Positions 19,075 through 41,494 of a stretch of 41,494 nucleotides of DNA are shown here, in pieces. The notes under the pieces were generated by a model that was not told where the DNA came from, did not search any database, and saw only the letters and a program-made list of their open reading frames with translations. Positions within the stretch are counted from its first letter, which is position 1, and each line of letters starts with the position of its first letter. The translations under genes were made by a program, and so were the position numbers. This DNA is from Bacillota bacterium (lineage in GTDB: Bacteria > Bacillota > Desulfitobacteriia > Desulfitobacteriales > JAJXUE01), in the NCBI GenBank assembly GCA_021783135.1, contig JAJXUE010000025.1, positions 1 through 41,494 on the forward strand, written 5' to 3'.

Positions 19075-20391
19075 ATGCAACGCACTTTTTATGCCTTACT
19101 TTTATTATTGCTGCTGCTGAGCGGTTGTGCCCCTAGTCTGCAGGCACCTGAGAATGGCTCGTCAACAGGGAAGCCAGACCCACAGCAGAAATCTGACATT
19201 GCCGGTATAGACTTTACGCAACTTTCCCGTAGTGAAGTGGAACGCCAATTAGCCGAGCTTGAGGCCCAAACCTTTGCTAAACCAATCTCCTTAAATTATG
19301 GGGCCCAACGCTTCACATGCAAGTGGAGCGATTTGGGCGTGAGCAGCAACAAGGCTCAGGTTCTGGACAGCGCCTATGCCACGTACCCAAATCCAACCCA
19401 CCCGCAGCTAGAACTGGAGTTTAAGCTCAATACAGCGAAAGCAGCCAAAGTTGTGGCTCGACTTACTGCAGCACTCAATACGCCTAGCAAGGATGCAGCA
19501 TTAAAGGCAATGACCGACAAGACCACTCAAGTGATTCCGCATCAGCTTGGCAAAAAAGTCGATCTGCAACAAACAGTGACGAATTTGCAACAGGCGCTCA
19601 AAACAGGGGCGGGCGAAGTTGATTTAAGGGTGCGAGACTTGTACCCTAAAATTACCACGGCGGATTTAGCTGCGATATCTTTTACGCAGCCCAGCGCGAC
19701 CTTTTCTACCCCATTTGCGCCTAGTGACAAAAACCGGACGGAAAACCTGCGTCGCTCGGCGCAAGCCTTAAATAATAGCATCATTAATCCTGGTGAAGTA
19801 TTTTCTTTTAATAAGGTTGTTGGATCACGTAGTGAAGAAAATGGCTACAAAGAGGCACTCGTGATTGAGGAAAATGAACTGGTGCCAGGCATTGGCGGCG
19901 GAGTGTGCCAAGTGTCGTCTACCCTTTACAATTTGGCGTTATTAGCGGATTTGCCGATCGTGGAGCGGCATCCGCATGAATTTGCTGTTAGGTACGTACC
20001 GCCTGGCAGAGATGCGACCGTGGTTTATGATCAAGCTGACTTGCGGTTTAAAAACAATACCGCAGGACCCCTTGTGTTGCGAGCGCAAGCGCAAGACGCC
20101 AAACTAACCTTAAATTTATTCGGCAAGAGTAGCGGCAAAAAAGTTGAAATAAAAACTACAGTGCTTGCTACGCAACCTTTTGCTACTGAACGTCGTTTTG
20201 ACCCGACCTTACCACCGGGCACTGTTGACAAAAGTAAGGCCGGCATGCCGGGTTATGTGGTAAAAACCTGGCGCATAGTTAAGCTAGGCCAGAAAGTGGT
20301 GCGGGAGGATGTCTTAGGTAAGGATGTGTACAAACCGGCTACCCGCATTATTCGCGTGGGACCTGCTAAAGGCAAGGAGGGGACGCGTTAA
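19075..20391 (+). CDS. VanW family lipoprotein
   Basis: A 438-residue lipoprotein. The signal peptide ends in the lipobox LLSGC with lipidated Cys18. Residues ~50-200 look like the peptidoglycan-binding-4 type region often found before VanW. The VanW domain spans ~220-350 with GEVFSFNKVVG, NGYKEALVI and GIGGGVCQVSSTLYN. A G5-like tail follows (about 360-435). VanW occurs in some vancomycin-resistance clusters but its role is unknown; an exported cell-wall role is inferred. The start is ATG with GAGGAGGG upstream. It lies in the conserved cluster just ahead of mltG, another wall enzyme. Confidence 0.88.
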   Translation: MQRTFYALLLLLLLLSGCAPSLQAPENGSSTGKPDPQQKSDIAGIDFTQLSRSEVERQLAELEAQTFAKPISLNYGAQRFTCKWSDLGVSSNKAQVLDSAYATYPNPTHPQLELEFKLNTAKAAKVVARLTAALNTPSKDAALKAMTDKTTQVIPHQLGKKVDLQQTVTNLQQALKTGAGEVDLRVRDLYPKITTADLAAISFTQPSATFSTPFAPSDKNRTENLRRSAQALNNSIINPGEVFSFNKVVGSRSEENGYKEALVIEENELVPGIGGGVCQVSSTLYNLALLADLPIVERHPHEFAVRYVPPGRDATVVYDQADLRFKNNTAGPLVLRAQAQDAKLTLNLFGKSSGKKVEIKTTVLATQPFATERRFDPTLPPGTVDKSKAGMPGYVVKTWRIVKLGQKVVREDVLGKDVYKPATRIIRVGPAKGKEGTR

Positions 20392-20408
20392 GCCTTCAGT
20401 TCACCATG

Positions 20409-20437
20409 TTGCTCCTGTTGCCAACGGGTAGTATAAT
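20409..20437 (+). promoter_or_regulatory. Promoter of mltG
   Basis: TTGCTC (20409-20414) and TATAAT (20432-20437) have a 17-base spacer. It lies inside the upstream extension of the mltG frame, which supports the downstream start. Confidence 0.6.
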
Positions 20438-20486
20438 AAATAAGTATGAAATTGAGTTCCAACCTGTTTTGGCGAGGATGAATAAT

Positions 20487-21554
20487 TTGGCAGAACTTGT
20501 ACAAAGGTGTAAAGCTGTCAAGGCAGTTTTTAGGAATCAAAACAAGCGAAAATTTATTTGGGGCATGGCGCTTGTCGTAGTTGTATTTATTGTGGCCGTT
20601 ATAGCAATAAATGCTTATATGTCACTAAATTTGGCTCCGCTTTCCGACAAGGCAAATGCTAAGCAAGTTCGCGTAGATATTGCCCAAGGTGATTCAACCA
20701 GCGAGATTGGGGGAACCCTGGTCAAGGCGGGTTTAATTAGAAACCAGCGATTTTTTGCCTGGTATGTCAGCTACCGTCATGCGGCTGGTCTGTTACGTAG
20801 CGGTGAATATTTGTTGAGTCCGGCACAAAATATGCAAAGTATTATCGAAGATTTACGGCAGGGTCCGCCGGTGGTCAAGGTAACCATACCGGAGGGTTTT
20901 ACTACCCAGCAAATTGTGGACTTACTGACTGAACGGCATTTGATAAATCCAACCAAATTTTACGATTTGGTTCAAAACTATGACTTTAACTATGCGTTTT
21001 TGACTGGAATACCGCCATCACACGCACGGCTGGATGGATTTTTGTTTCCGGCAACCTATGATATTAAGCTTGGCACGTCCGAAAAACAAATTATTGAGCT
21101 GATGCTGAACCGTTTCCAACAGGAATTGACACCGCAGATACGCCAAGCTGCAGCCGCCAAAGGCTGGAGTATTAGACAGCTAGTGACAATGGCATCTTTA
21201 ATTGAGCGAGAAGCGAAAGAAGCGCAAGATCGCGCGATAATTTCTCAGGTGTTTGCCACACGCCTGCACGTCGGCATGCCGCTTCAGTCTTGTGCTAGCA
21301 TCGAGTATTTGTTGGGGCATCGTAAGCCAATCTTGTCGCTTGAAGATCTGAAAATAGCGTCGCCCTATAATACCTACTTGCATCGTGGGCTGCCGCCCGG
21401 GCCGATAGCCAACCCGGGAGATGCTTCCATTCAGGCGGCGGCTTTTCCTGCCCAGACCGATTACCTCTATTTTGTGGCAAAACCGGACGGATATCATGCC
21501 TTTGCTAAGACGTATAGTGAACACTTGGTCAATGTACACAAATATGAACACTAG
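20487..21554 (+). CDS. mltG: Endolytic murein transglycosylase MltG (YceG-like)
   Basis: Inner-membrane enzyme that cuts nascent glycan strands and sets their length. The 355-residue protein has one N-terminal membrane segment (GMALVVVVFIVAVIAINAY), a LysM-like part (VRVDIAQGDSTSEIGGTLV), and the YceG catalytic domain with the presumed catalytic Glu240 in ASLIEREAKE. SPYNTYLHRGLPPGPIANPG is the conserved end motif. The frame is open from 20406, but the promoter lies inside that stretch. TTG 20487 is nine bases after GGCGAGG; ATG 20478 directly abuts this site and is less likely. It corresponds to B. subtilis yrrL, also before trmR. Confidence 0.93.
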   Translation: MAELVQRCKAVKAVFRNQNKRKFIWGMALVVVVFIVAVIAINAYMSLNLAPLSDKANAKQVRVDIAQGDSTSEIGGTLVKAGLIRNQRFFAWYVSYRHAAGLLRSGEYLLSPAQNMQSIIEDLRQGPPVVKVTIPEGFTTQQIVDLLTERHLINPTKFYDLVQNYDFNYAFLTGIPPSHARLDGFLFPATYDIKLGTSEKQIIELMLNRFQQELTPQIRQAAAAKGWSIRQLVTMASLIEREAKEAQDRAIISQVFATRLHVGMPLQSCASIEYLLGHRKPILSLEDLKIASPYNTYLHRGLPPGPIANPGDASIQAAAFPAQTDYLYFVAKPDGYHAFAKTYSEHLVNVHKYEH

Positions 21555-21566
21555 AGGAGTGCCGCT

Positions 21567-22211
21567 TTGTTTTATCCTTTTGCCCTAGAACAATACTTAG
21601 AAGAACTCGTGCCGCAGCGTGACCCCCTGTTGCTGGAGATGGAGGCACGATCCTTGGCCGAAACTATTCCTATCATCACCCCCGCGGTAGGTAATTTTTT
21701 GGCTTGGTTGGTACAAGTAAGTTCTGCCCATAATATGTTGGAAATAGGTACCGCTATCGGCTATTCCACGTTGTGGTTGGCAAGGCCCGCTCAAGCGTGG
21801 GGTGGTCATGTTACGACAATTGATCTGAATGTAGATCGACAACAACGCGCCGTTGCCTACTTTAGCCGGGCCGGGTTAACCAATACCATTACCTCGCTTG
21901 CCGGGGATGCCCGCAAACTTTTACCAAGCTTAGATGGGGCCTACGATCTGGTATTCATTGATGCGGCTAAAGGGGAGTATTTGGAGTACCTGGATTTAGT
22001 AACACCATTAATGGCCTCTAATGGAATTTTAGTGGTGGACAATGTGCTGTTTCGCGGTTGGGTGGTGCCAGGCAGTACGTTTGACCCTAAATATGAGCGT
22101 ATGGTCGCCAAGCTGCGCGAGTTTCTCGCACGCTTGAACCAAAACCCGGACTTTGCCACGAGCGTTTTGCCTCTGGGTGATGGTTTGGCAATTAGCAGAC
22201 GGAGGTCTTAA
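21567..22211 (+). CDS. trmR: O-methyltransferase, probable tRNA 5-hydroxyuridine methyltransferase TrmR
   Basis: Class I SAM-dependent methyltransferase of 214 residues. The SAM site is MLEIGTAIGYSTLWLA; then ITSLAGDARKLLP, the metal-binding acidic motif DLVFIDAAKGEYLEYLD and VVDNVLFRGWV, as in the catechol-O-methyltransferase-like family. B. subtilis TrmR (YrrM) methylates ho5U34 to mo5U34 and lies in the same order mltG-trmR-trhP, which drives the specific call. TTG 21567 follows GAGGAG. It overlaps no neighbour; its last bases include the ribosome site of trhP. Confidence 0.88.
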   Translation: MFYPFALEQYLEELVPQRDPLLLEMEARSLAETIPIITPAVGNFLAWLVQVSSAHNMLEIGTAIGYSTLWLARPAQAWGGHVTTIDLNVDRQQRAVAYFSRAGLTNTITSLAGDARKLLPSLDGAYDLVFIDAAKGEYLEYLDLVTPLMASNGILVVDNVLFRGWVVPGSTFDPKYERMVAKLREFLARLNQNPDFATSVLPLGDGLAISRRRS

Positions 22212-31044: not shown

Positions 31045-31179
31045 TTAGTTTTGGTGAAATTTTGATGAAAATAATTTTATATACTTAATTGGGGTCTTAT
31101 AATTTAGCATAACTGTCAAAATGAAAAAGGAAAAACTCCGGGAGATTTAACAAATTATTACGGGAATGGAGTGGGTTTT

Positions 31180-34100
31180 ATGGATTTTAAGCAAAGACGT
31201 TGGGGCCTATTGATAATCTTAGTTATATTGTTTCAGGTGACCATGCTGGCCAGCGGCGTTAAAACGACGTATGCTGATGTCGGAACCGGCCCGGTAGGTA
31301 CTTCCACCAGTTCGCCGTTTATGACTTTTAGTGTCATCCAATATGGGGTTGGTCCATTGTCTCCGGTAAGTGGAGCATACACATATGCAGTTACAGATGG
31401 CACGAAACTTGACATTCATGCTAGCTTAACCCTAGCCTCAAACGAAACAGGTTGGTCTTTTTCTATAAATGGTCAACCAGTTACTCCCGTTATTAGTGAC
31501 AATGGTGGACTGTATACTGCAGCCTGGGATGACGTTATATATATTAGTTCAACAACTGAAGGATTCTATAAACTTCAATGGGTTCCCCCGGGTGGCGGCG
31601 GTGAATGGGTAAATATATATATAGGTGACATTCCAGCTTATACCCAGGCCACTGTGCAGACCAATGTAGCATCAAATATCACTGCCAATTCAGCCATCTT
31701 AAATGGCTATATCTCAAGCGATGGGGGGGCAACTGTAACAGACCGGGGCTTTAACCAGACCGGCAGCGTCGGCTCCGGGGGGACAGGTGCATTTTCCTCA
31801 GTATGGTCGGGCTTAAGTCCTAATCAGAACTATTCATATCAGGCCTATGCAACCAATGCCGCAGGAACCGCTTATGGCGGAACCAATAGCTTCTGGACTA
31901 TGGCCGCTACTCCTGGTTTGACCTCGGCAGCATTGCAGCCGGACCGAAGTGTGGTATTGACCTTGAACAAAAACGGCAACCCCACGAACACGAACTATAT
32001 GGTGCAAATGGCAACAGATGCAAATTTTACCCAAAACGTGGCGACTGTAGTTAGCTGGACAAGCCCTGGGGCTGGAACGACCTTGGCCGTGCCCAGCTCC
32101 AAAATGAATCCTGGTACTACCTATTATTTCCGCTTACAGGCCGAAAATGGGGCAAGTGTCGCTTCCGGTTATGGGGCGCAAACGGTAAGTGCCAGTCAAC
32201 TGCCGCCTATTGCCCTAACTCCAGGGATTGCCTCTTTTAACGCTAATGCGGATGGCTCTATGCCGGCAAGCCAGACTGAGGTGTTCACGCTGGCCAACGG
32301 TACATTTAGCGGAACCACCGGTCAAACTTTAGCGGGTGTCAGCGTGAATAATCTTCCGGCAGGGCTGACAGCAATGGCGACACTAGACAGTACCACTCAA
32401 ATGACACTCAGTTTCAGCGGTACCGCGACAAATCACAGCAACGCCAATAATGTGCCCAATGTCAGTGTCGGCGTGCCTCAAGTAGATGTTGTCGGCGCCA
32501 GTGCAACTGTAACCAGTGGCAGCTTCGCCATCGATTTCCTGCTGCCGCCTTCGGCGACTTTAAGCATTACTTCTCCGGCCACTACAGCTTTAGATGAAGG
32601 CCAACTTAAAAGTAATGCCGCTCTATATTCTCTGACCATGACCCTCGGCAACGAAACTTGGGCCTCCACGTCGCTGGTACCCGCCGGTTTCACCTTAAAC
32701 AACCCTCCTCCCGGATTAAGCATTGCAGGAGTAACTTATGTCGACCCCACCCATGCTACTTTGACCTTGGCTGATAATGGCACCAATTTCGACACCCCTT
32801 ACAATAACTTAAGTGTTACCATCTCCAGCAGCCAATTACCGTCCTCCTATGCCTTGACCAGCAATACCCTGCCGGTAACTTGCGAAACAAAGCCGGTAGT
32901 AAGCACAAACACTCCGGCAACTAAAGTAGCGGCAACGGAATATACCTCGGGCGGAAATGTGACTTCAGACGGAGGCTATCCGGTCACCGCTCGTGGGGTA
33001 GTCTATTCAACCCAGCAAAATCCGTCTATAGGTAGCGGTTCGGCTACCGAGGTCGATGCAGGTAGCGGTACAGGTAGCTTCACCGCTGATCTTACAGGGC
33101 TTTCCCCCGGCAACACCTATTTTGTGCGCGCTTTTGCCACGAATGCGGAAGGTACAGCGTATGGCGGTCAGGATAGCATTATTACCCCTGCCAATAATGC
33201 TATCCTTGCCGAACTTGCCCTAAGTAACGGCCTATTAACCCCCGCATTCAGCACCTCAAGTACAGCTTATGCAGCGAGCGTGGCTAACAGTGTCAGTAGC
33301 ATCACAGTAACTCCGACGTTAGCTGATAGTACAGCCAGCCTGACTGTAAACGGCAAAACAGCAGCAAACGGTCAAGCCTCGGCTGCTATCCCGCTGAACG
33401 TAGGGGTAAACACCATCACCATAACGGTTACGGCGGCAGACGGCACTACCCAAAAGACCTATACAGTAACGGTGACCCGCAAAGGTTCCGCTGACGCCAA
33501 TTTAAGCAGCTTAGGGATTAGTCCCGGCAGCCTTAGTCCGGCCTTGTCCGAGAATGTCACAGATTACACCGTTACCGTGCCGGACAGTACGTCCAGCGTC
33601 CAGGTGACAGCCTCAGCTGAGGATGCTAACGCAACTATAAAGGTGAATGGGACCCAGCTAACCAGCGGCAATAAGCTTAGTGTCAGTATTGCCAGTAACA
33701 ACTTAATCAGTGTAGTGGTCACGGCCCAAGACGGCACGCCAAAGACTTACAGCGTACGGGTACTTAAAAGCAATTATCTCAGCTTCAAGTATCCTGACTT
33801 CGCCAGTAACACCAACTTGCTGCAGATTAACCGTAACGCTGCGCTTATTAATGGCAATACCTTAGAACTGACCCCGAACAAAACCAATCAGGCAGGTAGT
33901 GTCTTTTACAAAAAAGAATATTCCCTGGTTAATGACCGCTCTTTCAGTACTTACTTTAGCTTCAAGTTAAGCGGGCGGGGCGGCATCGGCCAGGCGGACG
34001 GCATTGTCTTTGCCCTGCAGACTGTTTCCAATACAGCCGGCTCATTGGGTGGAGGATTGGGCTTTGCCGGACTAAATCCCGCGGTCGGTGTAGAGTTTGA

Positions 34101-37100
34101 CACCTGGCACAATGGCGAAAACAATGATCCGACGGCACCGCACATAGGCCTCGATATCAACGGCTCGGTCAAGTCAGCTGCCACTGCGCTAACTCCCTGG
34201 GATATCCGGGATGGCAACGTCTATTATGCCTGGATTGACTATAACGGCCCAGATAAAACGATCGAGGTACGCTTAAACACTACCCCGACCCGACCGGCAA
34301 GTCCGGTATTGACCTACAACAAGCTGGATTTGGAAAGTATCTTAAACCAAAGTGAAGTTTATGTCGGCTTCACCGGGGCTACCGGCGGCGCCAGCCAGGA
34401 ACAGGATATCTTAAGCTGGTATTTCAACAATGATGACACCCACATCGACACCCAGACCTATAGCTACACCCAAACTCCTACCACGGTCACTACGACCTTA
34501 AATCCAACTGACAATGCCTCGCAAACCACAGTGCAGGCCACTGCCCTAAATCTTGACGGAACTGCGGCTACTAACATTCCGCTTACTTTCAGCACGACCT
34601 TGGGCAGCTTTACCACCTCCGGCACAATAAGCAGCATATCAGTGCTCACAAATGCCAGTGGGCAGGCTTCCGCAACTTTGTATGCAGCGCAATCCTCGGG
34701 AGCTGCGACAGTCAAGGCGGTAGCCGAAGGTGGAGCCTGGGGGAGCCAAACTATCAATAACCTAGATCTGACTGATCCTGAGGCCGTAGCTGCTGACAAA
34801 GCGAATCTGGCTATCGGCTATGCACCGGGTGATTCCGTAAGCAGCGTGACCCAAAACTTGACCCTGCCGGCAACAGGTGCCAACGGCACAGCCATTGTTT
34901 GGGGTTCCAGCGATACCTCTGTTATCAACCCATCCGGCACAACCGGAAGTGTGACGCGGCCGGGCTATTTTAATGGCGATGACCAAGTCACCCTGACCGC
35001 AACGATCAGCAAAGGAAGCGCGACTGATACTCAAACCTTTACGGTTAATGTTAAAGCGCAACCATATGTTGCGCCGGTTGTCACCGCGACTCCGAGCGTG
35101 GGCGGCATTAAAGAAACAGCAGCCAATGACGGTAGTGTAAGCGGCACGATTAATGTCAGCATCAGCGGCGGCACATTTGCCTCTGATATTGCGGCGGCGG
35201 ACATTGTGGTCAATGACCTGCCGAGCGGTCTTACCCCTACAGTTACGTACAACACCAACACCAGTATTACGCTTGGCTTTAGCGGCAATGCCAGCAACAA
35301 TGCTGCCGACTACAGTGTAAATAATGCTTCAATAACTATTAGCAAAGAAGCACTAATCGGGTCACTGTCAGACCTCACTACGGGTTCATTCTCAATCACC
35401 TTTATGGATCCCACCCAGATTAGCTTGGTGAACAGTGAGGTGGATGAATCCCCGGCTAGCAGCTATACCACGGGTCAAATTGACGGCAGTATCGAGGTGG
35501 CCTTAGCTAACGGTACTTTTAAAACCGGCGGTTTCACATCTGGCACGGACTTTTCCGTCAGCGATTTGCCGTCCGGCTTGACGCCGCAAATGACCTATGT
35601 TGATCCCACCCATGTCAGCGTAAACTTTAACGGCAGTGCGACTAATAATGATGTTAGCAATGATGTCAATGATGCTACTATCGTTATCCAGCCCAGCGCT
35701 CTAATCGGAATGCCGACGACCGCGGCAACTTTGACGTCTAACACGTTCCGGTTTGTCTTCAATGAGCCGCAACCGACCTTAAATGTAGCTACCCCTGTAC
35801 TTAGCGAGTCTGCAGCCAATGACGGTAGTATCACCCAGACCCTGACCTTAAATCTCGATCACGGGATGATCGCTGCCGGAACTACACTGACTACAAGCGA
35901 TTTAACGGCTTTGAACCTGCCCACTGGTCTTTACATTGCTAATGTAAGCCAAAGTAACACTATTGGCAGTACCGGTTCGACGCTGACGGTTACCCTTGGC
36001 GGTAAGGCGGTACACAATCTGGCCTCGGACAGCGTGTCTAATGTGCAAATTGTCTTAGACGGCAGTGTGGTTACCCCGAACGGTACAACCTGGCCGAATC
36101 CCTATGGTCAGTCCATTCCCTCTAACACCTTTGCCATCCACTTTATGAACCCGCCGCCGAGTATCACGGTGGGCAGCCCGGTGATTCAGGCAGATGCTAC
36201 CAAAAAAGACGGCAGCATTACGGAAACCCAGACTGTTTCAATTCAAAATGGTACGTTCGTGCCGGATATGTCAGGCGGGGTATTTGTCACCAACCTGCCG
36301 CAAGGTATTACGGCAAGTGTGACAACTTCAAGCTCAACCCAGCTAATTATTCAGTTTAATGGGAATGCCTTAAGCCAAAATCCTAATTCGGCTGATGCTG
36401 GCGTTGTTATATCCGGCAGCAAAATTATTCCCACAACGGGCGCTACGGTATCGGATATGGTGGCTTCCAACAACTTCAGCATTGATGACCCTACAGGCAA
36501 CCTCTTAGCCGATTGGGACAGCCAGCATGTGCAAATCGTTTATGCTCCGGGGGACTCTGCTACAAGTATTACTCAGAATGTAGGGCTGCCAACTCAGGGC
36601 GCGAATGGGTCCAGTATCACCTGGAGTTCCAGTAACCCTGCGGTAATCAGTCCAGCCGGCACTGTTACCCGGCCCGATTATCTGACGGGAGACGCCACGG
36701 TCAACTTGACTGCCAATGTCAGTTACCCAGGCACTACCGGAAGTACTGTTGTCGTGAATTATAACAACCTCGTCGTCAAAGCCCAGCCGCTGACCGCGGC
36801 CGATTCAGTCACCCAGGATACGCAGAACCTGGCAATCGGGTATAACCCCGGTGAAAGCAGCACTGGACTAAGACAGAATATTTACCTTGCTACGGCCGGT
36901 CAGGATGGCAGTGTGATTAATTGGAGTTCCAGCGACCCGGCAGTTGTCAGCACGGACGGCACAGTTACCCAACTGCCCTACGGTACGTCAGATGCCACGG
37001 TCACGCTAATCGCGACTATTAGCAAAGACGGTGTGACTACAACCCAGACCATGACACTAACGGTCTTGCCGAGTGAAGAAAGCGGCATAAGTCTTAATCC

Positions 37101-39093
37101 CACGGCACTTACTCTGACCTCTGGGATAGGAAACGCGGCTATCACCGCGACGGTAAGCCCGTCAAGCGCTACCTCAGCAACCATCAATTGGGTAAGCAGC
37201 AATCCAGGTGTGGCAACGGTAAGCCCGGACAGTACTGTCGGATCAACCAGCACGGTGATTATAACGCCTATACTAGCAGGTAGTGCGACGATTACTGCAT
37301 ATGCGGCAGACAATGTTAATATTCTGGCCAGTTGTACTGTCACGGTAGTTCAGGCTAAACATCACTCCGGAAACAGCAGCGGCAACATGCCAACGGGCGG
37401 TACTGCTCCAACAACGGGAGGTACTACCCCAACAACCGGAGGCAGCACTCCCACAAGTGGTGGAGTGCCAACGATCACGTCAACGGTTGTAGACCAAAAT
37501 AACAATCAGACAGTAGCTCAGAATACCGCTACTTTAAGCACCGGTACGAGTGGGACGGATACCGTCACATTTAATCAGGCCAAGACCATTGTGCTACAGC
37601 AACCTGACGGCAGCCAAACGCCGTACCAGGATTACGGCAATATCAGTTATGTTGCACCATCGGACGCACCGGTTACTGTTAATTCAGAAGGAAATGTGCA
37701 AGTAAGTAATCTGGTCAAAGGTAACAGTTATGCCATACCGGTTACCTACAGCTTTGGCAACGGCCAAACCATAACTATCGGCACAATCCATATTGCTGTA
37801 GATCAAAACGGCAGTGTCAGCATGACTACCAGTTTGATTGACCCGTATGGTACCTTGACTGACGCCCTCACCGGCGCGGTTATCCCGGGGGCCCAGGTGA
37901 CTTTGTACTACGCTGATACGGCCCGCAACAAGCTAAATGGCAAAGCGCCGGGAACAGTCGCGCAATTGCCTGCCATTAACGGCTTTAAGCCCAACAACAA
38001 CCAAAACCCTCAAGTAACGGACAGTAATGGCAACTATGGTTTTATGGTCTTTCCCAATACCGATTACTATGTGGTGGTAACCAAGCCGGGCTATGACACC
38101 TATACCAGCCCGACAATTGCCGTCGGGACGCAGTTGGTAGAGTTCTCGATTAAGCTGAACCATCCTTTAAACGGAGTGACCCGTATCGCCGGAGCAACGC
38201 GGGTAGATACAGCCATAGCGTTGGCCAAAGCAGAACATACAGGCAAAGTTAACGCAGTGATTTTGGCCACAGCGAATAACTACCCGGATGCCTTGACCGG
38301 AAGTGTCTTGGCCTATCAGCAAAACGCACCGATTCTCCTGGTAGGTACGTCCCAAGCTGACCGGGCCAAAGTAATTTCCTACATTCAAGCCAATGCCACA
38401 ACTGACCCGACAATCATTGTCCTAGGTGGGACAGGCGCGGTTAGTAACGCTGTTATTCTGCAAGTCGAAGCAGCCGGGTACACTAATATCGTAAGATTAG
38501 GTGGAACTGACCGCTATGAAACCTCAGTTAAGATTGCGCAGTACCTCAATGCAGCGCCGGGTACGCCGGTGGTGATTGCCTCAGGTGAGAACTATCCCGA
38601 TGCGTTGTCAGTGAGCAGTTCTGCAGCAGTAAATCGGGACCCAATTCTGTTGGTGAGCCAAAACGGTATTTCGGCTGCAGTCCAGACGGAATTAAATACG
38701 CTTAAGCCCAGTAAGGTTTATGTCATTGGCGGCACAGGAGTAGTCAGTGAGGCAGTCGTCAAGCAAATTGCTGACTTAACGTCACTGCAAAGCAGCAATA
38801 TTGTGCGTATAGGCGGTACGGACCGGTACGCCACTTCCTTGGAGGTAGCCAAGTACTTTGACTTATCCGGGAAGAGTGTGTGTATCGCCACCGGAGAGAA
38901 CTTCCCGGATGCCTTGGCCGGCAGCCTGTATGCGGCCAATTACAATGCGCCAATTCTGTTGGCCGACGGTAGTCTGACCACGGGTGAACAGCAGTATCTG
39001 CAAAATGCTGCGCTTACGGGGGCCACACTTTTCGGCGGTACAGGAGCTGTAAACGGCAATATTCAAAATGAGGTTGCAGGCTTAATTAAGTAG
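31180..39093 (+). CDS. Giant secreted surface protein with L-type lectin domain and cell-wall-binding repeats
   Basis: A 2,637-residue exported protein. The signal peptide (1-32) is cut after TTYA. Then: fibronectin-III-like units (~156-342, ~568-670), two beta-sandwich modules (~346-570), two cadherin-like beta-sandwich units (~674-862), an L-type (legume-like) lectin (~866-1087) with ADGIVFALQ and the metal-site motif GVEFDTWHN (Glu972, Asp974), an invasin-type Ig unit (~1094-1194), one atrophied Ig unit, four more ~115-residue modules (~1296-1771), two more atrophied Ig units, a Big_2 unit (~1967-2058), a Thr/Gly/Pro linker (~2061-2098), a carboxypeptidase-regulatory-like unit (~2219-2328) and three wall-binding-2 repeats (~2328-2637, RIAGATRVDTAIALA, GENYPDALS). 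ATG 31180 has TGGAG eight bases upstream; GTG 31171 is the alternative. Adhesion to glycans is inferred. A possible -10 TATAAT is at 31098-31103. Confidence 0.9.
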   Translation: MDFKQRRWGLLIILVILFQVTMLASGVKTTYADVGTGPVGTSTSSPFMTFSVIQYGVGPLSPVSGAYTYAVTDGTKLDIHASLTLASNETGWSFSINGQPVTPVISDNGGLYTAAWDDVIYISSTTEGFYKLQWVPPGGGGEWVNIYIGDIPAYTQATVQTNVASNITANSAILNGYISSDGGATVTDRGFNQTGSVGSGGTGAFSSVWSGLSPNQNYSYQAYATNAAGTAYGGTNSFWTMAATPGLTSAALQPDRSVVLTLNKNGNPTNTNYMVQMATDANFTQNVATVVSWTSPGAGTTLAVPSSKMNPGTTYYFRLQAENGASVASGYGAQTVSASQLPPIALTPGIASFNANADGSMPASQTEVFTLANGTFSGTTGQTLAGVSVNNLPAGLTAMATLDSTTQMTLSFSGTATNHSNANNVPNVSVGVPQVDVVGASATVTSGSFAIDFLLPPSATLSITSPATTALDEGQLKSNAALYSLTMTLGNETWASTSLVPAGFTLNNPPPGLSIAGVTYVDPTHATLTLADNGTNFDTPYNNLSVTISSSQLPSSYALTSNTLPVTCETKPVVSTNTPATKVAATEYTSGGNVTSDGGYPVTARGVVYSTQQNPSIGSGSATEVDAGSGTGSFTADLTGLSPGNTYFVRAFATNAEGTAYGGQDSIITPANNAILAELALSNGLLTPAFSTSSTAYAASVANSVSSITVTPTLADSTASLTVNGKTAANGQASAAIPLNVGVNTITITVTAADGTTQKTYTVTVTRKGSADANLSSLGISPGSLSPALSENVTDYTVTVPDSTSSVQVTASAEDANATIKVNGTQLTSGNKLSVSIASNNLISVVVTAQDGTPKTYSVRVLKSNYLSFKYPDFASNTNLLQINRNAALINGNTLELTPNKTNQAGSVFYKKEYSLVNDRSFSTYFSFKLSGRGGIGQADGIVFALQTVSNTAGSLGGGLGFAGLNPAVGVEFDTWHNGENNDPTAPHIGLDINGSVKSAATALTPWDIRDGNVYYAWIDYNGPDKTIEVRLNTTPTRPASPVLTYNKLDLESILNQSEVYVGFTGATGGASQEQDILSWYFNNDDTHIDTQTYSYTQTPTTVTTTLNPTDNASQTTVQATALNLDGTAATNIPLTFSTTLGSFTTSGTISSISVLTNASGQASATLYAAQSSGAATVKAVAEGGAWGSQTINNLDLTDPEAVAADKANLAIGYAPGDSVSSVTQNLTLPATGANGTAIVWGSSDTSVINPSGTTGSVTRPGYFNGDDQVTLTATISKGSATDTQTFTVNVKAQPYVAPVVTATPSVGGIKETAANDGSVSGTINVSISGGTFASDIAAADIVVNDLPSGLTPTVTYNTNTSITLGFSGNASNNAADYSVNNASITISKEALIGSLSDLTTGSFSITFMDPTQISLVNSEVDESPASSYTTGQIDGSIEVALANGTFKTGGFTSGTDFSVSDLPSGLTPQMTYVDPTHVSVNFNGSATNNDVSNDVNDATIVIQPSALIGMPTTAATLTSNTFRFVFNEPQPTLNVATPVLSESAANDGSITQTLTLNLDHGMIAAGTTLTTSDLTALNLPTGLYIANVSQSNTIGSTGSTLTVTLGGKAVHNLASDSVSNVQIVLDGSVVTPNGTTWPNPYGQSIPSNTFAIHFMNPPPSITVGSPVIQADATKKDGSITETQTVSIQNGTFVPDMSGGVFVTNLPQGITASVTTSSSTQLIIQFNGNALSQNPNSADAGVVISGSKIIPTTGATVSDMVASNNFSIDDPTGNLLADWDSQHVQIVYAPGDSATSITQNVGLPTQGANGSSITWSSSNPAVISPAGTVTRPDYLTGDATVNLTANVSYPGTTGSTVVVNYNNLVVKAQPLTAADSVTQDTQNLAIGYNPGESSTGLRQNIYLATAGQDGSVINWSSSDPAVVSTDGTVTQLPYGTSDATVTLIATISKDGVTTTQTMTLTVLPSEESGISLNPTALTLTSGIGNAAITATVSPSSATSATINWVSSNPGVATVSPDSTVGSTSTVIITPILAGSATITAYAADNVNILASCTVTVVQAKHHSGNSSGNMPTGGTAPTTGGTTPTTGGSTPTSGGVPTITSTVVDQNNNQTVAQNTATLSTGTSGTDTVTFNQAKTIVLQQPDGSQTPYQDYGNISYVAPSDAPVTVNSEGNVQVSNLVKGNSYAIPVTYSFGNGQTITIGTIHIAVDQNGSVSMTTSLIDPYGTLTDALTGAVIPGAQVTLYYADTARNKLNGKAPGTVAQLPAINGFKPNNNQNPQVTDSNGNYGFMVFPNTDYYVVVTKPGYDTYTSPTIAVGTQLVEFSIKLNHPLNGVTRIAGATRVDTAIALAKAEHTGKVNAVILATANNYPDALTGSVLAYQQNAPILLVGTSQADRAKVISYIQANATTDPTIIVLGGTGAVSNAVILQVEAAGYTNIVRLGGTDRYETSVKIAQYLNAAPGTPVVIASGENYPDALSVSSSAAVNRDPILLVSQNGISAAVQTELNTLKPSKVYVIGGTGVVSEAVVKQIADLTSLQSSNIVRIGGTDRYATSLEVAKYFDLSGKSVCIATGENFPDALAGSLYAANYNAPILLADGSLTTGEQQYLQNAALTGATLFGGTGAVNGNIQNEVAGLIK
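33775..34440 (+). other. L-type lectin domain within the surface protein
   Basis: The segment opens FKYPDFASNTNLLQINRNA and contains a beta-sandwich pattern of bacterial legume-like lectins. In that fold an Asp (here in ADGIVFAL), a Glu-x-Asp pair (EFDTW), Asn and a later His/Asp (HIGLDING) bind Ca2+/Mn2+ and sugar. All of these are present, so sugar binding is plausible; the sugar is not predictable. Confidence 0.8.
38160..39090 (+). repeat. Three cell-wall-binding repeat 2 units
   Basis: Three ~100-residue units share R-I/L-x-G-x-T/A-R-Y/V-x-T-S/A starts, A-x-G-E-N-F/Y-P-D-A-L and V-I-G-G-T-G-x-V-S. This matches the PF04122 family, which binds the anionic wall polymer of Clostridium difficile. 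They form the C-terminal anchor of the protein. Confidence 0.88.
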
Positions 39094-39556: not shown

Positions 39557-39691
39557 GACGGCAACAGTTTGTCGCCTGATGGACTAAATTGGCTGCAAAG
39601 CAGCAAACCGATCGGTGCGACCATATTTGGCGGCCCGGGTGCGGTAAACCAGAATGTAGAGCAGCAGTTGAGCCAGGCAATCGGTCAGTAG
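39557..39691 (+). pseudogene. C-terminal remnant of a second cell-wall-binding-repeat protein
   Basis: From the codon after a TAG (39554-39556) to TAG 39689-39691, 44 codons read DGNSLSPDGLNWLQSS, then PIGATIFGGPGAVNQNVEQQ. This is clearly related to the end of the giant protein (ADGSLTTGEQQYLQ, TGATLFGGTGAVNGNIQNE). Only the last half unit survives, with stops in front. It suggests a former tandem duplicate of the surface-protein gene. Confidence 0.75.
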
Positions 39692-39938: not shown

Positions 39939-40360
39939 ATGCTACTTGAGATGCTGGGAATTGTGGTCAAAGGTGGACTGCCAGTCCTTAAACTCCTGTC
40001 AGTATTAGTGGCGCAAGGGGTGCCTTTAGCGAAATGCCTTCCCATTCTGGTCGGATATATTAATAACAATGCCTTTCCGCAGCCTTTAAATGAACGTGAA
40101 GAAGCACTATGTATCGGCAACCTTTGTGCCGATGGTAAAGCTAAGGATGAAGCTAAAGATAAGCTGATTGAGCACAATTTAAGGCTTGTAGCGCATATAA
40201 CGAAGGAGTTATGCACGAGAATCAATGTAAAACTAGAATTATTTTCCAGACCGGTTTTGTGCTGATTAAGGCGAAAAATATGTACGATATACCAGCGTTG
40301 ATTGACTTGCCAGGTAAACGACTGTTGACGGTTATCCAGATAACTGACACAACTAGATAA
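39939..40360 (+). pseudogene. sigK: Degenerate sporulation sigma factor sigK (5' half intact, 3' part frameshifted)
   Basis: ATG 39939 follows GGGGGAGGGG by five bases and opens a hydrophobic pro-sequence-like N terminus. It is followed by INNNAFPQPLNEREE and LIEHNLRLVAHI, which are hallmarks of sigma-K (residues ~45-95). The frame stops at 40265 after a poorly matching tail. In another frame the DNA at about 40230-40290 reads FVLIKAKNMYD, resembling the sigma-70 region-2 sequence IGLIKAINTYD, and later GKRLLTV resembles KGTRLATY. This is what a frameshifted, mutating copy would look like. Nothing after 40360 continues it. The alternative is a sigK split by a skin-like element with the 3' half elsewhere. 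Confidence 0.7.
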
Positions 40361-40366
40361 TTGTAA

Positions 40367-40408
40367 AAAATCCCATTCGCCGGTCTTGTGCTAGACGAAT
40401 GGGATTTT
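40367..40408. terminator. Bidirectional terminator between sigK remnant and topoisomerase gene
   Basis: AAAATCCCATTCG (40367-40379) is fully complementary to CGAATGGGATTTT (40396-40408). With A and T runs at each end it can serve the convergent genes on both strands. Confidence 0.88.
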
Positions 40409-40421
40409 AAGCGTTTAATCT

Positions 40422-41494
40422 CTATTTAATACATTGACCAATTTTTGTTCTGCCCTCTACGGGTATTTTTTTATGTTTTCCCGTCCCATCTGAGATTACA
40501 GCACTTATAATCAAACCAGTTTTTTCAGGGATAACTTTAGTGACCGCCAAGCCTTTGCCACCACGACCTTGTACTGGATACTCAGTTAATAAGGTTTGCT
40601 TTGCATAGCCATTCTCAGAATAGGTAACAAGACGTTTATCGATATCCGCCGGTGCAATATACAACGCTGCGACCACTTCGTCAGTTATCATCCCACGTAC
40701 ACCCTGAGATTTTCGTCCCTGAACGCTAATCTGGTTGATATTAAATCTGATACCTTGTCCGATGGGGGACACCAACATTATGTCGCCGGAGTCCTTAACG
40801 ATGAATACGTGAAGGAGCTTATCATCATTTTTTAGATTGATCGCTTCATTGGTTCGTGCTTTCAAAAATTCATCAACTGGGCTTCGCATTACCTGCCCGA
40901 GTTTTGTAGCAAATAAAAAATACAATTCATCTGCTTCATCGGGAATGGCCAGTGTTTCAATACATCCTTTTGATTGGGTCCACTGAAAATTGCCATCAGC
41001 AGAGAAATGGATTAGCTTATTTTCTTTTACGAGATCACCCTGGTCATCACTTTCTAATATTGTGGTTTTGCGTGGATCACCATACCTGTTTTTGAATGAT
41101 AATAAATCGTTTTTAATTATGGTGTCCACCCTGCTGCGGTTTTCCAAAATATTTTCCAAATCTGCAATAGATGCGAGTAGCCCTTGATGTTCTGCTCGGA
41201 TTGAGTCCAACTCTAAACCAGTTAAATTTTGCAACTTCAACTCAAGAATGGCCTGAGCTTGAACATCATCAAAACCGAAATCAACCATAAGTTGCCCTTT
41301 AGCGGATGAAGGGGTTTTTGCACTCCGAATAATCACAATCACTTTATCCATGTGGTTTATTGCTGTGACCATAGCCTCCAAGATATGAGCTCGCGCTTTC
41401 GCATTTGAAAGTTCGTATGTTGTTCGCCGACGAATGACTGTTTGACGATGTTTGATGTAAGCAGCGTTAATTTCCCTCAGTGTCATAACCGCCG
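40422..41494 (-). CDS. Type II DNA topoisomerase subunit A (GyrA/ParC-like), C-terminal part (partial)
   Basis: The minus-strand gene continues past the right edge; the frame is open through the last codons before the ATG at 41486, so that ATG is internal. About 357 residues are visible. The first ~150 contain the breakage-rejoining core end (LREINAAYIKHRQTVIRRRT, then FDDVQAQAILELKLQNLTGLE and a coiled tail). Then come beta-pinwheel blades with QGRKSQGVRGM and a QGRGGKG motif near the end. In E. coli GyrA the QRRGGKG box is in the first blade; here that place reads as a degenerate WTQSKGCIETL, and the last blade looks cut short. It may therefore be ParC-like or a divergent paralogue. The stop is TAG at 40422-40424. 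The gene is more A/T-rich than its neighbours. Confidence 0.85.
   Translation of the reverse strand, partial: AVMTLREINAAYIKHRQTVIRRRTTYELSNAKARAHILEAMVTAINHMDKVIVIIRSAKTPSSAKGQLMVDFGFDDVQAQAILELKLQNLTGLELDSIRAEHQGLLASIADLENILENRSRVDTIIKNDLLSFKNRYGDPRKTTILESDDQGDLVKENKLIHFSADGNFQWTQSKGCIETLAIPDEADELYFLFATKLGQVMRSPVDEFLKARTNEAINLKNDDKLLHVFIVKDSGDIMLVSPIGQGIRFNINQISVQGRKSQGVRGMITDEVVAALYIAPADIDKRLVTYSENGYAKQTLLTEYPVQGRGGKGLAVTKVIPEKTGLIISAVISDGTGKHKKIPVEGRTKIGQCIK

Follow-up and report, generated by a model that had tools for sequence, protein, structure and literature searches.

A sigK gene probably split into three exons by two independent skin-type elements in a member of the Bacillota

We report that positions 39939-40205 of the window, the 41,494 nucleotides of DNA analysed here, which make up the whole of contig C59, are most probably the first exon of a sigK gene that is split in three by two independent skin-type elements. 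The probability that we attach to this reading is about 0.88. The genome searched for the remainder of the gene comprises 2.71 Mb in 67 contigs. Element 1 would extend from window position 40206 to position 2298 of a second contig, C40, and would be inserted after codon 89, with element 2 following 46 codons farther on; each ends in its own large serine recombinase gene, directed at the following exon (Table 1).

In bacteria, the textbook example of a programmed DNA rearrangement is the excision of skin. Both skin of Bacillus subtilis and skinCd of Clostridioides difficile are the single sigK element of their hosts (PMC5025042, PMC6957869).

Results

The initial annotation had taken the 5′ half of this gene for sigma-K, and a profile search bears this out: the frame at 39939-40265 matches SigK over residues 28-92 and nowhere after them (NF004471, 58 bits; TIGR02846, 51 bits, profile positions 13-67 of 227). 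Codon-level comparison was made with the intact SigK of G001 (L021), the nearest relative that has one, which belongs to the same family. The last base shared with the G001 gene is 40205, in the sequence ...CTT GTA GCG CAT ATA ACG AAG; because identity stops there, the break falls just after region 2.1, as had been claimed. A frameshift or sequencing error in an intact gene has a negligible chance of being the explanation, and nothing speaks for it except the annotation's impression of a shifted frame. When the reading frames of the window were examined, none restored SigK after 40205, and regions 2.2 to 4 are located elsewhere in the genome.

A SigK profile search of the whole assembly found two more pieces, both on C40: one at C40:2278-2448, matching profile positions 60-116, and one at C40:25720-26073, matching positions 109-226. 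The annotation had proposed looking for a 3′ half accompanied by a recombinase gene, and these are two such pieces, each preceded by a different recombinase gene. When the three exons are joined at the cores AAG and ATCGAAAACGAG, one in-frame SigK of 253 aa results, which scores 329.2 bits against TIGR02846 (cut-off 298.65) and aligns with the intact SigK of G001 with zero gaps at both junctions. Across all contigs the same search detected no other SigK, neither an intact copy nor a full-length second one. The idea that a true sigK lies elsewhere fails because the sole full-length match, on C33, is SigE (432 bits). SpoIIID is also encoded in the genome.

Relative to G001, pN/pS is 0.28 for exon 1, 0.07 for exon 2 and 0.15 for exon 3; these values, only rough because synonymous sites are saturated, speak for constraint on all three exons. 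Counting against the three-piece reading, exon 1 is the least conserved of the three (64% identity to G001), and its score in the SigK profile is below that of exon 1 in other genomes.

Table 1. Features of the divided sigK gene and of the two elements
Feature	Location	Strand	Remarks
sigK exon 1	window 39939..40205	+	89 codons; N-terminal extension and start of region 2; ends ...NLRLVAHITK
Shared core AAG, site 1	window 40203..40205	+	Identical bases precede exon 2 at C40:2296-2298; from codon-level comparison of both junctions
attL1 element arm	window 40206..40229	+	GAGTTATGCACGAGAATCAATGTA; from profile of foreign attL1 arms and match to C40 attR1 arm
Element 1, left end	window 40206..41494	.	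Truncated by contig end; right end is C40:1-2298, with recombinase 1
Small frame	window 40211..40360	+	49 aa, holding FVLIKAKNMYD; weak similarity to element peptide and to sigK exon 2
GyrA/ParC-like fragment	window 40422..41492	-	Runs off contig end; profile positions 336 onward
Recombinase 1	C40:660-2306		548 aa; Resolvase, Recombinase and zinc-ribbon domains; overlaps start of exon 2
sigK exon 2	C40:2299-2436		Directly after the 548-aa large serine recombinase
Element 2	C40:2425-25719		23,295 bp; core ATCGAAAACGAG; inserted 46 codons after site 1
Recombinase 2	C40:24188-25705		505 aa; Resolvase, Recombinase and zinc-ribbon domains; directly before exon 3
sigK exon 3	C40:25732-26088		Directly after the different, 505-aa large serine recombinase; 23.3 kb beyond exon 2

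To examine the attachment sites of element 1, we took the 24 bases lying after the corresponding break in each of eight other genomes, made an attL1-arm profile from these sequences alone, and searched both strands of the window with it. The highest-scoring position in the whole window is 40206 on the + strand (15.7 bits; next 11.3); on C40 the profile peaks at 2271 on the minus strand, at the arm that precedes exon 2 (24.1 bits). In turn, the attR1 arm from C40 has its best window match at 40205 (19/24; next 15/24). Together the arms make up an imperfect inverted repeat, and each carries the element's own GATTCTCGT variant, which indicates that the C59 end and the C40 start belong to one element. 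We infer that the two contigs are neighbours through element 1, the interior of which is not assembled; direct comparison of the C59 end with the C40 start found no DNA similarity bridging them. Element 1 is at least 3.6 kb in size and has its ends on these two contigs, whereas its counterparts in G460 and G469, which are complete at about 4.4-4.6 kb, each lie on one contig.

Element 1 has the properties of a skin-type element: it interrupts sigK and its flanks join in frame to a full SigK, it contains a large serine recombinase gene that adjoins one att site, and its attL and attR match and share a short core. An element of this type had been suspected from the window, and the adjoining of the 3′ part to a recombinase gene confirms the suspicion; what could not be seen there is that two elements and three exons are involved, so the initial interpretation stands in part. 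Its further suggestion of a scar left by excision or insertion does not hold, since attL still has its arm, attR matches it and the recombinase gene is intact. Directly before recombinase 1 is a frame of 45 aa (C40:425-562) that is similar to an equally placed frame in Shimazuella elements (0/2000 shuffles) and is a candidate recombination directionality factor. In B. subtilis this function belongs to Skr, a protein of 64 aa located before spoIVCA (PMC5025042, PMC6957869).

The small frame that follows the break is weakly similar to the first frame of other site-1 elements (4-13/2000 shuffles, in three of four comparisons), and at the DNA level it also resembles sigK exon 2 over a short, collinear stretch (banded score 16; 0/1000 shuffles, chosen post hoc). 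The two similarities point to different origins, and the frame may be either an element peptide or a sigK fossil. As for the faded FVLIKAKNMYD of the initial annotation, a weak likeness to exon 2 is indeed found, but it does not restore sigK. This exon 2-like stretch after the attL1 arm counts against the three-piece reading. Since bases 40255-40288 resemble exon 2 at the collinear position (0/1000 shuffles), and since the exons are on different contigs, the window copy might instead be a degenerate sigK duplicate and C40 might hold the remains of another copy, the pieces never having formed one gene. We regard this as very improbable. The pieces overlap only at the cores and jointly make up exactly one SigK, and the profile search of the assembly found no further 5′ piece to which the C40 exons could belong. 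Moreover, decay would not create the attachment arm of this element family at the break, and at least eight other genomes have sigK broken at this very codon.

The assembled left end of element 1 also holds a GyrA-like fragment with matches to TIGR01063 (247 bits), PF00521 and PF03989. It is ~31% identical to the two full-length paralogues of the genome, and a search of the assembly for the N-terminal part of the gene found it absent. A phage origin was considered and rejected, since neither of the two recombinases nor the GyrA-like fragment has a close relative in IMG/VR; phages and plasmids hold only distant relatives. The assembled part of element 1 showed no phage genes.

Element 2 lies on one continuous piece of DNA, where it interrupts sigK, has a recombinase gene beside an att site and has a short core. 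Recombinase 2 is 47-50% identical to the site-2 recombinases of G017, G463, G464 and G469, and only 28-31% identical to site-1 recombinases. In these comparisons the recombinases follow the insertion site, with the exception of G461, whose site-2 recombinase is only 32% identical to recombinase 2. The target, site 2 (...CIENE), presumably resembles the skin site of B. subtilis. Among the other contents of element 2 are a Type II CRISPR system (Cas9 of 1098 aa, Cas1 and Cas2) and its CRISPR array of at least 36 repeats with a 66-base period (L017:15000-19521 and C40 about 19500-22100). For 28 of the 35 extracted spacers, comparison with phage records gave no match. Two proteins of the element, of 870 and 850 aa (L017:3003-5615 and L017:8866-11418), have no Pfam or NCBIfam match.

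If the elements were stuck and excised no longer, sigK would stay broken and late mother-cell sporulation would be lost, an outcome that the initial annotation had also raised. The gyrA-like gene of element 1, lacking its N-terminal part in the assembly, and the greater divergence of exon 1 compared with exons 2 and 3 would be in keeping with such a state. However, each recombinase gene is complete and encodes the three domains, and the cores and arms are intact. Loss of late sporulation is also unlikely because the exons join in frame, have pN/pS values (0.07-0.28) that suggest constraint, and are accompanied in the genome by SigE and SpoIIID. We therefore give little credence to stuck elements and continue to favour two elements that can be excised.

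The same arrangement is found in other genomes. Relatives of recombinase 1 turned up in ten records and in four other genomes among 398 sampled from the phylum, some of them belonging to the same species. In other Clostridia, known as MAGs, and in Bacilli of the genera Shimazuella, Thermoactinomyces, Croceifilum and Paenibacillus, such relatives (47-55%) sit in sigK at the position that element 1 occupies. In Paenibacillus terrae and P. farraposensis, the recombinase of the site-1 insertion adjoins the 5′ exon. Site 2 is used in the source genome, in G017 and in several Thermoactinomycetales, and a third site (...DKEGNE) is used in Thermoactinomycetales. Four sigK pieces, corresponding to three elements, are present in Croceifilum oryzae (G463), Thermoactinomyces sp. 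DSM 45892 (G464), Shimazuella soli (G469), G493 and G499, and three pieces in G465, G482, G501, G477, G488 and G496. In several of the three-piece genomes the pieces are in order on a single contig, and the multi-piece sigK is therefore not an assembly artefact.

A census was made of one order, recognised as Thermoactinomycetales by its named members. Among its 42 genomes, sigK is uninterrupted in 20 and carries one element in 5, two in 6 and three in 5; the remaining 6 were uncallable. The source organism's own order is represented by 74 genomes in the collection.

Two arrangements seen in other genomes are noted separately. In Shimazuella soli (L106:1-6000, C1:368000-374000), the final sigK exon lies on the other strand, which places the two ends of the third element in an inverted arrangement. 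Unless this contig is misassembled, recombination there would rebuild sigK through an inversion rather than an excision. G287 (L122, C3:400000-419000, and C3:321661, 327665, 380984) has a sigK 5′ piece and a site-1 element that contains a complete sigK, with several extra sigK 3′ halves downstream; this looks like repeated insertion at one site.

Discussion

The mechanism by which the gene would be reassembled can be sketched from the known systems. As in B. subtilis and C. difficile, SigE and SpoIIID would switch on the directionality factors in the mother cell (PMC5025042, PMC6957869). Each recombinase, together with its directionality factor, would then join its own attL and attR, releasing the element as a circle and leaving attB, and the two excisions would rebuild sigK in the mother cell. 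The forespore, and with it the spore lineage, would retain both elements, which would consequently be inherited. By this analogy, excision is expected to be confined to the mother cell of sporulating cells. Because sigK holds two elements, the cell probably must cut out both before a spore can be completed. For the several lineages with a multi-exon sigK, we lean toward the proposal that the two or three rearrangements, carried out by different recombinases, could form an AND gate on late mother-cell development.

The likeness to skin and skinCd consists of an element inside sigK, a large serine recombinase at one end, a short core and an in-frame gene after excision. The difference is that those hosts have one element each, whereas the source genome has two, with two recombinase groups. 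In the Bacillus cereus group, sigK insertions have been described at nt 195 (Island IV) and at nt 423 (AH820-type), with one per strain, and the Island IV recombinase is a protein of 545 aa whose gene adjoins the 5′ exon (PMC10745906). Matched by the published positions, nt 195 falls in the region where LVAH is followed by I, which is site 1 in the source genome, and nt 423 fits site 3 of the Thermoactinomycetales. The Island IV recombinase is located beside the 5′ exon, whereas recombinase 1 is beside the following exon. A 105-kb infectious phage of Alicyclobacillus, MMB025, is also integrated in sigK (PMC13141910). Among phage proteins, the MMB025 integrase is the one that best matches recombinase 1 (35% over 411 residues); however, MMB025 is an infectious phage, and phage genes were not observed in the assembled part of element 1.

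Multiple interruption is known from heterocyst-forming cyanobacteria, where 10 of 87 interrupted genes are multiply cut, with up to four elements in nifD of Rivularia (PMC4874684). There, as here, a gene that only a terminal cell type requires holds several elements at once, although the phylum and the genes are different and excision takes place in heterocysts. XisF of the cyanobacterial fdxN element is a distant relative of recombinases 1 and 2.

A full-text search of open-licence papers, in which a subscription paper could be missed, found no account of a sigK gene with two or more elements. Skin elements occurring singly at sigK are published, but two or three in one sigK seem to be undescribed. 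With a sigK that carries two or three unrelated elements, each at a fixed site, recurring in distant spore-formers, one can ask whether the elements are parasites that the host tolerates or timers that it keeps, and whether they are excised in a set order. As groups with fixed targets, the recombinases would in addition be candidate integration tools.

Other features of the window

Upstream of sigK, the window encodes a surface protein of 2640 aa (31171-39093) with a legume-lectin domain, Ig-like repeats, cadherin-like domains and three CWB2 repeats. Between this gene and sigK, at 39585-39690, there is a short in-frame remnant that by eye resembles the end of a CWB2 repeat. Near the start of the window, at about 200-460 and before the gene at 483, a putative T-box leader was recognised by eye (GGTGGTACCACGG...).
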